Below are positions 9,189 through 11,531 of a DNA stretch of 64,000 nt, piece by piece. Each line of letters opens with the position of its first letter. Position 1 is the stretch's first letter. The DNA lies in assembly GCF_013374095.1 (NCBI RefSeq), contig NZ_AP022672.1, positions 2,807,501 to 2,871,500 of the forward strand, written 5' to 3'. Under the pieces are notes generated by a model that searched no databases, had not been told where the DNA came from, and saw only the letters and a list, made by a program, of their open reading frames with translations. Made by a program: the position numbers and the translations under genes. Origin of the DNA: Sphingomonas sp. HMP6. GTDB taxonomy: Bacteria > Pseudomonadota > Alphaproteobacteria > Sphingomonadales > Sphingomonadaceae.

Positions 9189-9683
9189 TCAGGGTGCGAC
9201 GGCGATGTGCGCGAGCCCGAAATCGCCGCCGGAACAGCCGGCGCTGGTCGCCACTGCAATCGGAACACTGCGCGATATATGAACGCCAAATCGGTCGAGG
9301 CTGCGCGGCACAAGACGATAGAGCAACGCTGTTAATTCGGGCGGGCCAACCGTGCGATTGCCGCGATAGAGATAGCGGACCGACCCGATCCGCGCCATTT
9401 GTTCGCGAAACGCCTCGGCATAATGCGCAGCGTTGACCGCGTCGCGCGCGGCGATCCGGCATGCGCCGCGTGTCCCGAAAAAGATCCAGCTCTGGAAGCG
9501 GTGCGGCTCGACGCGCACTGCGAAGCCCTGGCCGCGTAACATGGCGGCAATCGCGGCGTTGGTCTTGCCCGACAGTTCGACTTGCGGCGCCGAGGCAAGC
9601 GCGTCTTTCACCGCGAGCGACCCGATCGTCGCCAGTGCGAAGATGCCCGCCCAGATGCTAAGCGCGACGGGCGAGCGCATCAT
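9189..9683 (-). CDS. Unknown membrane-anchored protein co-encoded with an exosortase
   Basis: Encodes 164 residues. The N-terminus MMRSPVALSIWAGIFALATIGSLAV is a signal anchor or transmembrane helix, and the remainder (containing FFGTRGACRIAARDA) looks soluble and periplasmic. It overlaps the 3' end of the exosortase gene by 26 bases, so the two are co-translated. No named domain recognised. Position suggests an accessory factor for the exosortase, as small single-pass partners are common in such loci. Two cysteines occur (in RGACRIA and SAGCSGG). Confidence 0.7.
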   Translation of the reverse strand: MMRSPVALSIWAGIFALATIGSLAVKDALASAPQVELSGKTNAAIAAMLRGQGFAVRVEPHRFQSWIFFGTRGACRIAARDAVNAAHYAEAFREQMARIGSVRYLYRGNRTVGPPELTALLYRLVPRSLDRFGVHISRSVPIAVATSAGCSGGDFGLAHIAVAP

Positions 9684-10419
9684 AGGCTCCGGCCCCGGTG
9701 ATCAGCCCGGCTAACAGCAACCCGGCCCAGCCAAACAGCGTCGCGCCCGTGCCGAGATGCAGCCATTCGAAATCCGCCGGGAACAGTGCGATCGCCGACA
9801 GCCGCGCGAGATTGAGCGCGTACATCGCCGCCATTGCCGCCACGCCGACCAGGATCAGCCGGCGGTCGATCGTCAAATCGAGTAAGGCGACAACACAGCT
9901 CCACAGCAAGAGCGCCAGCGAGATGTTGTGGACCGAAGAACACGGCCCGCCGATCACGAACTGTCCGCCGCCGACAAACCCGACCAGATTGCCCGTCGCA
10001 CCCGTCCCGACGATCGCGCCGACGATTTGCCCGTCCGCCGCGAGCACAATCGGGGCGAAGGCGAGGAGGACGATCTTGCCCCAGAGCAACGTTCCGCTGA
10101 GCGCAAGCAAAACCAGCGAGATGCGGCGCGCGCGCCCGTCCTGCGCGGTCAGCACGAGATAGGCACCGAGCAGAAATACGCCAACTGCCGCCGTCCACGT
10201 TGCGGGTAGCAGCGCGCACAGCGCCGTAATGCCTAGCACGATGCCATCGCCGCGCCGCCATGCCGAAGCACCGGGCTCAACCGCAATGCGCAGCGCCGCG
10301 AACAGGCCGAACCACAGTACCGCGCTGACCCCGGCCAGCGATACGATGGCATCGATCAAGCCGGCTTCGTGGATCGACCCAAGGATCGTGTCGGCCAGCG
10401 CGTTGATCGCAGCGAACAC
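9658..10419 (-). CDS. Exosortase/archaeosortase family transpeptidase
   Basis: Encodes about 253 residues, nearly all in transmembrane segments (about eight). The three exosortase catalytic positions are visible late in the protein: Cys in FVIGGPCSSVHNISLALL, Arg in ALNLARLSAIAL and His in FEWLHLGTGATLF. Exosortases cut PEP-CTERM-like C-terminal tails of exported proteins at the inner membrane. The GTG start given is uncertain, because the frame stays open upstream to about 10503 with a protein-like sequence. The gene lies 80 bp after a tiny gene whose product looks like its substrate and overlaps an accessory gene downstream. The exosortase subfamily was not assigned. Confidence 0.85.
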   Translation of the reverse strand: MFAAINALADTILGSIHEAGLIDAIVSLAGVSAVLWFGLFAALRIAVEPGASAWRRGDGIVLGITALCALLPATWTAAVGVFLLGAYLVLTAQDGRARRISLVLLALSGTLLWGKIVLLAFAPIVLAADGQIVGAIVGTGATGNLVGFVGGGQFVIGGPCSSVHNISLALLLWSCVVALLDLTIDRRLILVGVAAMAAMYALNLARLSAIALFPADFEWLHLGTGATLFGWAGLLLAGLITGAGAYDALARRA

Positions 10420-10499
10420 GCCGACGCCCGCAAAGCCGACGGCGCGATCAACGGCGAGACTGTTAAGCGAGAAATCGTACGGTGCGGCGTGGGCCGCGC

Positions 10500-10673
10500 T
10501 CAGCGCTGCGCCCGGCGCTTGAGTGCGCGGTAGCCGAGACCGATCAGCGCGACGGCACCAAGTCCGACGCCTGCAATGGGGGCAGGAGTGGCCGGAAGAC
10601 CGGCGAAGGCGGGAGCAGCTTCGGTCAGCAGCAGCGTGAAAGCGGCGGCGGTGAAAGCATGGTTACGCAACAT
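10500..10673 (-). CDS. 57-residue exported peptide with a sorting-signal-like tail (putative exosortase substrate)
   Basis: Read from the sequence: an ATG preceded by a GGGGGA-type ribosome site starts a 57-residue product. Residues 1-24 (MLRNHAFTAAAFTLLLTEAAPAFA) form a signal peptide ending AFA. Residues 25-57 are a short proline-rich motif GLPATPAPIAG, a hydrophobic helix (VGLGAVALIGLGYRAL) and the basic end KRRAQR. That tripartite tail is the architecture of a PEP-CTERM-type sorting signal. Almost nothing lies between the export signal and the tail. It is immediately upstream of the exosortase on the same strand. Substrate status is inference. Confidence 0.75.
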   Translation of the reverse strand: MLRNHAFTAAAFTLLLTEAAPAFAGLPATPAPIAGVGLGAVALIGLGYRALKRRAQR

Positions 10674-10757
10674 TGGAAAATTCCCCCCTTGTGGTCAGGC
10701 GGGCAGCGTAGCATCCCGGCAGTGGCACGCAAGGTGCCAGGCAAAAGGAATTTGCAG

Positions 10758-11531
10758 GTGGGGCAGGTGAGCTGGATTTGGGCGGCAGCGCTCGCCATCT
10801 GCTTCGTGTCGCTCGCGCTTTTGGAATCCGTGATTCCCGCCTCGCGGGGTACGCGGCCACCGGGCACCACCGACGCACGACTCGTCACCAATTTCGGGCT
10901 CGGTCTGCTGACGATCGGCATGAGCGGCATGTTGCCGGTCTCGACGCTCGCCGCCGCCCTGCTTGCCGGGGATAAGGGGATTGGACTCGGCCAGTCAGTC
11001 GCTTTGCCGTGGATTGTACTGTTCGCACTCCTGCTGCTCGCGCGCAGTTTCACAACCTATTGGGTGCACCGGGCGAGCCATGCGATCCCGTGGATCTGGC
11101 GCGTCCACCGCGTTCACCATGCCGATGCCGCGGTTGATGTATCGACCGCCTTGCGCAATCACCCGATCGAATTGCTGATCGTCGCGCCGGTCGCGGCGGC
11201 GACGGTGTTGCTGATCGGCCCGCCGGTCACGGTCGTGCTCGCGGTCGATACGCTGCTGTTCGCGCTTGGCCTATGGCAACACGCTAATATCGCGCTGCCG
11301 CGACCGATCGAGCGTATGCTTGATCGGATCGTGGTCACCCCCGGCTTCCACCGCGCGCACCACGCGCCGGACCGCGCGTGCCATGATCGTAACTATGGAG
11401 ATTTGGTGCCGCTGTGGGATCGCCTGTTTGGCACGCTCGCCCCACCCGCCGACCGCGCAGCGCCGGTTGGGCTTAACCGGGCGCATCCTGATCGGCTGCT
11501 GGTGCAATTGCTCGATCCGGCGCAACGGTGA
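10758..11531 (+). CDS. Sterol desaturase / fatty-acid hydroxylase superfamily membrane protein
   Basis: Encodes about 257 residues with several membrane helices. Histidine boxes are present: HRASH, HRVHH, a lone His in LWQHANI, and HRAHH, which match the di-iron hydroxylase superfamily. The substrate could be a fatty acid, a sterol-like lipid or another lipid. The GTG at 10758 was chosen as start because GGAA lies 7 bases upstream and the frame further up overlaps the divergent mini-peptide gene; in-frame GTG 10767 or ATG 10659 are alternatives. It is divergent from the exosortase locus. Confidence 0.8.
   Translation: MGQVSWIWAAALAICFVSLALLESVIPASRGTRPPGTTDARLVTNFGLGLLTIGMSGMLPVSTLAAALLAGDKGIGLGQSVALPWIVLFALLLLARSFTTYWVHRASHAIPWIWRVHRVHHADAAVDVSTALRNHPIELLIVAPVAAATVLLIGPPVTVVLAVDTLLFALGLWQHANIALPRPIERMLDRIVVTPGFHRAHHAPDRACHDRNYGDLVPLWDRLFGTLAPPADRAAPVGLNRAHPDRLLVQLLDPAQR

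Follow-up and report, generated by a model that had tools for sequence, protein, structure and literature searches.

A candidate exosortase cassette in Sphingomonas with a 57-residue mini-substrate and a linked fatty-acid-hydroxylase-superfamily gene

In the part of PMC1569441 that concerns them, genomes with the PEP-CTERM/EpsH system carry a median of eight substrates, and EpsI is the companion encoded directly downstream of the exosortase in Methylobacillus. The periplasmic acceptor of bacterial exosortase products is described in the same part of that article as unknown. For archaeosortase A, the relevant section of PMC7157517 reports that a lipid-synthesis gene adjoins artA in some archaea, and that an amino-lipid acceptor was proposed and followed up from the adjacent lipid gene. 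N-acyl amino acid synthases have been linked with exosortases (Craig 2011, as cited by title in PMC11631085), and deletions of XrtF or its associated gene reduce surface colonisation and biofilm in Flavobacterium johnsoniae, according to the pertinent portion of PMC10936215. Large, diverse cargo makes exosortase acceptors hard to measure.

The locus described here lies in Sphingomonas sp. HMP6 and encodes an exosortase-family protein beside a substrate-like peptide with almost no cargo. The whole stretch of DNA that was analysed, called the window, comprises 64,000 nucleotides (positions 2807501-2871500 of contig C1 in genome G000, which is a single contig of 3.64 Mb).

Layout of the locus and its exosortase

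On the minus strand, a 57-aa peptide (10500..10673) is followed by an exosortase-family protein (9658..10503, start approximate) and a single-pass partner of 164 aa (9189..9683), and a fatty-acid-hydroxylase-superfamily gene (10758..11531, plus strand, start uncertain) is divergent from them. This order of peptide, exosortase and partner had been proposed in a sequence-only reading of the DNA and was borne out by the open reading frames, as was the 26-nt overlap of the partner gene with the exosortase gene. The 84 bp given there for the distance between peptide and hydroxylase holds if GTG 10758 is the start of the latter, and that start is a guess. A purine-rich Shine-Dalgarno stretch lies upstream of the peptide ORF. 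The cassette neighbours identified between 5.3 and 14.9 kb of the window are histone-deacetylase-like, NhaA, LysK, fatty-acid hydroxylase, helicase and histidine phosphatase genes, and no exopolysaccharide genes were found among them. NhaA is again near the cassette in L024, L025 and L026, and LysK in L024 and L025; both are on the opposite side from the one they occupy in the window, and the surroundings of the cassette have therefore been rearranged.

The exosortase scored 25.4 bits with TIGR04178 against a cut-off of 23, which places it in that family. The relatives in loci L021 (31.9 bits) and L022 (23.7) were also above the cut-off and that in L025 (19.5) was below it. No match at E<=10 was obtained in Pfam, including Exosortase_EpsH PF09721 of the XrtA type. 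A protein search with the exosortase returned 33 relatives at E<=0.001, and Cys188, Arg234 and His249 were invariant in all 26 exosortase proteins aligned. The AlphaFold2 model of the enzyme had a pLDDT of 88.7. The same genome carries a second exosortase, of the EpsH type, at G000:C1:610464-611216 (PF09721, E 5.6e-67).

No ATG, GTG or TTG occurs in the exosortase frame between the peptide stop and GTG 10419, yet the homology of the exosortase relatives reaches upstream of GTG 10419, so the CTG at 10503-10501 is the likeliest start. Judged from these reading frames, the exosortase probably begins with this CTG, which overlaps the TGA of the peptide (CTGA); the same overlapping CTG is present in S. 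psychrolutea. Automatic calls that begin at GTG 10419 (253 aa, as in P0002) would cut into and lose the first helix.

Conservation of the mini-peptide

The peptide, defined by its ORF and by alignment, can be divided into four segments on the minus strand. A predicted signal peptide of 24 aa ending in AFA (10602..10673, called by eye) is followed by GLPAT (10587..10601), which is the whole stretch from the predicted signal-peptidase site to the motif; then come the putative recognition motif PAPIAG, of the form PxPxxG (10569..10586), and a helix with conserved G-Y...L and the basic end KRRAQR (10503..10568). The tripartite layout of motif, helix and basic end together with the N-terminal signal peptide is PEP-CTERM-like. 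The window peptide itself gave no match to TIGR02595 or PF07589 at E<=10, and the tails of relatives remained below the cut-offs of both models (TIGR02595, 11.8 and 12.6 bits against 16; PF07589, 13.4 against 20.7). Annotations of some exosortase types include short PID-CTERM or VPEID-CTERM proteins; here PID_CTERM scored 17.4 bits against 26, and only the long substrate in L017 gave this match.

A PxPxxG-helix-basic-tail ORF was found just upstream of the exosortase in 13 of 13 Sphingomonadaceae loci, the window included. When about 164 kb from these loci was scanned in six frames for PxPxx[AG] followed by a helix and a basic C-terminus, all 16 matches were directly upstream of the exosortase and on its strand, one per locus and four in L021. 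With starts picked by eye from several candidates, the substrate is a mini-peptide of 53-59 aa in 10 of the 13 loci, with the four copies in L021 in tandem. In L017, L018 and L019 the slot is filled by a Gly/Asp/His-rich secreted protein of 106-159 aa with the same tail, and these three loci form one exosortase clade (support 99).

The sequence-only reading had named an unconserved frame or a non-coding substitution pattern as grounds for giving up the peptide, and had proposed aligning the tails of relatives. The comparison with S. psychrolutea was performed for the whole peptide and for its parts. Across the whole peptide, 25 codon changes are synonymous and 5 nonsynonymous; the signal peptide holds 7 of the synonymous and all 5 of the nonsynonymous changes, and the 33 codons after it hold 18 synonymous changes and no nonsynonymous one. 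The frame is conserved, the pattern of 18 to 0 is that of coding sequence, and the stub and tail are under purifying selection. The stub is identical in the two species.

A profile search with the peptide, covering proteins of approximately 31-100 aa, returned 529 proteins at E<=0.01. The 120 listed, a set biased by retrieval, are 53-75 aa long and, with one exception (P0147), carry the source name 'hypothetical protein'. Their aligned tails show the conserved PxPxxG motif before the helix that the earlier reading had proposed to look for: P1, P3 and G6 of the motif and G17, Y18, L21 and R24 at the helix end (helix residues counted from the motif's first P as 0) are invariant in 120 of 120 listed peptides. 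The residues just before the motif are variable among the listed peptides, and A-x-A and the motif are 4-6 residues apart in 112 of the 120; one has no A-x-A. In the window's own genome, the full-peptide profile gave one match at E<0.002 and the tail profile one true tail. A second such tail was not found there; the next match (E 0.0024) is inside a 256-aa membrane-protein ORF.

The exosortase is rare, occurring in 8 of 397 genomes in the family sample and 6 of 295 in the genus, with the window's own genome counted in both. Full-length peptide matches (E<1e-9) were found in 5 of the 397, all of them among the eight exosortase genomes, and the remaining three gave tail-only matches (E 2.9e-6 to 1.6e-4). 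These results support the earlier proposal of a self-contained exosortase cassette, dedicated to a substrate with hardly any cargo. More distant relatives were also found. Two Rhizobium plasmids (L128, NZ_CP042825.1; L129, NZ_CP017105.1) carry a distant exosortase followed immediately by a partner of the two-cysteine type; the neighbours in L128 are glycosyltransferase genes, and L129 is unannotated. No PxP tail was recognisable within about 5 kb of either, which suggests that exosortase and partner can work on other targets. In genome G1071, of another alphaproteobacterial family, a 65-aa signal-peptide-plus-tail peptide (SPAPAPVAG..., L062:7183-7380, E 1.2e-10) adjoins genes that by eye resemble type I secretion ABC/HlyD, and no exosortase was found in the 15 kb examined around it.

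Association with the partner protein and the hydroxylase

The partner is encoded at the 3' end of the exosortase gene in 13 of 13 loci and has two invariant cysteines (C75 and C150 in the window), which are also present in 17 of 17 rows of alignment A5. Three members scanned against Pfam and NCBIfam gave no match. The AlphaFold2 model (pLDDT 76.7) consists of a single long helix plus an alpha/beta domain, predicted to be periplasmic, and a PDB search with this model gave no informative match. The two-cysteine partner may help to assemble the exosortase or to control it by redox.

The motif of the substrate and the flank of the exosortase active site were compared. Nine loci combine PxP[IV][AV]G with CSSxHN, three combine PxPEAG with CSSx[KA]N, and five combine PxP[LIVM][LI][GA] with CSSxQG. 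Motif class and flank thus correspond in all 17 of the 17 loci; the classes were defined post hoc and run parallel to the exosortase tree. This match and the split between long and mini-substrates track few clades, and they therefore represent few independent events.

The window hydroxylase belongs to the PF04116 superfamily (111.8 bits against a cut-off of 31, E 4.3e-32). Its best NCBIfam match was the OlsE model NF052566, with 84.8 bits of the 475 required, and an assignment as OlsE equivalog was rejected. With the window hydroxylase as query, a homologue divergent from the mini-peptide was found in 9 of the 13 loci. Four further mini-peptide loci of another genus, reached by means of the peptide itself, each contain the full set of peptide, exosortase, partner and hydroxylase. 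Of the mini-peptide loci that allow the test, 13 of 13 have the hydroxylase next to the peptide, as against 0 of 3 loci with a long substrate (Fisher p 0.0018), a contrast that amounts to few independent events because the long-substrate loci are one clade; the 14th mini-peptide locus, L021, ends at a contig edge and was left out of this count. An orphan fifth peptide in genome G171 (contig C19, L063:3976-5032) is off the exosortase contig and divergent from a fatty-acid hydroxylase gene, which separates the pairing of peptide and hydroxylase from linkage to the exosortase.

The cassette hydroxylases are the nine nearest to the window hydroxylase among 65 from the 13 genomes (65 of 70 matches, five weak ones being left out). 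The cassette label required 2 changes on the hydroxylase tree compared with a mean of 9.4 after shuffling, and 0 of 500 shuffles were as low; the cassette hydroxylases cluster without forming a supported single clade in this quick tree with long branches. The adjacency in 13 of 13 loci, the G171 orphan and the tree strengthen the earlier hint that the hydroxylase belongs with the cassette. Among eight genes compared between the window and S. psychrolutea (L003), dS was 0.95 for the peptide, a noisy value from a short sequence, and 0.77 for the hydroxylase, as against 0.21-0.52 for six flanking genes. The peptide-hydroxylase segment (10500-11531) may perhaps have had its own recombination history.

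Proposed product and comparison with known systems

The reading we prefer, with moderate confidence, is that a dedicated exosortase cleaves the peptide at the PxPxxG motif and hands the leftover stub, roughly 5-8 residues long, on to an acceptor of the envelope, for which a hydroxylated lipid is a plausible candidate. Given the genes, their conservation, the purifying selection, the gene linkage and the catalytic residues, we infer the steps after export, namely cleavage, cut site, acceptor and lipid, as follows. The mini-peptide would be exported by its signal peptide, with the tail helix keeping it in the inner membrane, and signal peptidase would free a membrane peptide of 33 residues. The adjacent exosortase would recognise PxPxxG and the helix, its cysteine would attack at or near the motif, and the remaining stub would be transferred to the acceptor. 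The acceptor or product would most likely be a hydroxylated lipid, yielding a small lipopeptide; this lipid is our first guess because of the divergent hydroxylase link and the archaeosortase precedent. The secreted domain with the same tail in three loci is what would be expected of a cargo slot. Points against this reading are the Rhizobium pairs near which no tail was recognisable, the unusually strong conservation of the tail helix, the small number of clades behind the long/mini split and the motif-flank match, and the failure of the cassette hydroxylases to form a supported single clade. We propose only tentatively that the exosortases of this clade make a ribosomally encoded lipopeptide and do not anchor proteins, the sole task of the operon being to join the stub to a hydroxylated membrane lipid, with the tail serving as leader.

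The mini-peptide could instead stay uncut and serve the exosortase-partner complex, whose real targets would be elsewhere, as a permanent subunit made of one helix, as a chaperone or as a pseudo-substrate that acts as decoy. Its conserved tail helix, with G-Y...L...R in all 120 peptides listed, would also be in keeping with a lasting helix-helix partnership, and its strict adjacency to the exosortase and the near lack of cargo agree with such a role. We nevertheless consider this unlikely, since the slot is occupied by a genuine secreted domain in three loci, the four tandem copies of G171 and the orphan beside a hydroxylase are more easily explained by a product than by a subunit, and in the window genome, where no other such tail was found, a decoy would lack any competitor. 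That the exosortase frees a secreted signal, a pheromone of 5-8 residues, with the hydroxylase driven from the same promoter but serving the envelope independently, would be consistent with the predicted product length, the variable residues right before the motif and the several slightly differing copies in G171. The absence of a receptor or regulator gene among the identified window neighbours, the hydroxylase linkage and the unchanged stub in S. psychrolutea make it improbable.

Two other explanations appear very improbable to us. If the peptide were vestigial, a sorting tail remaining after loss of a cargo domain, the long versions in one clade could represent the earlier form; these versions, however, are a single clade within the mini-peptide loci, so the mini-peptide may be the older state, and the purifying selection on stub and tail and the 529 short relatives at E<=0.01 argue against decay. 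The peptide might also be processed by the EpsH-type exosortase at G000:C1:610464, which is present in the genome with a strong PF09721 match, while the local enzyme does something else. Against this, the tail has no match to the PEP-CTERM models, and the peptide shows its adjacency, its co-occurrence and its motif-flank agreement with the local enzyme.

Under the preferred reading of stub transfer, the only substrate would yield a stub just a few residues long, and a candidate lipid-modifying enzyme is encoded beside it, so the product could be detected directly by lipid mass spectrometry, and the cassette makes the exosortase acceptor question testable. The idea of a sorting substrate is widened to a conserved family whose conservation resides in the tail and not in the cargo. 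If true, the lipopeptide reading would give Alphaproteobacteria a new way of making lipopeptides.

By its sequence, the cassette is a variant of the exosortase/PEP-CTERM kind that has no model of its own in NCBIfam 20.0 or Pfam. It shares with PEP-CTERM/EpsH (XrtA) a Cys/Arg/His exosortase, a substrate with a signal peptide and a motif-helix-basic tail, and a companion gene directly downstream of the exosortase. It differs in having PxPxxG in place of PEP, with the PEP-CTERM models below cut-off or unmatched, one substrate found in the window genome compared with the median of eight, a cargo of about 5 residues, a position outside a polysaccharide cluster, and a partner that matches no library model. 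The rhombosortase/GlyGly-CTERM system likewise has a sorting enzyme and its only target encoded adjacently, as the relevant part of PMC3237569 describes, but its enzyme is an unrelated protease and its target a full protein. XrtF of Flavobacterium johnsoniae is an exosortase with an adjacent associated gene (PMC10936215, in the portion dealing with it), whereas it belongs to Bacteroidota, and the tail models are below cut-off here. OlsE shares the PF04116 superfamily with the cassette hydroxylase, which reaches 84.8 of 475 bits with the OlsE model. Archaeosortase A/PGF-CTERM of Haloferax has a large cargo, the S-layer glycoprotein, and archaeal lipids, whereas the cassette has a mini-cargo and a hydroxylase-superfamily gene; the two enzymes belong to the same superfamily, and the archaeal C-terminal processing goes together with lipid anchoring (PMC7157517).
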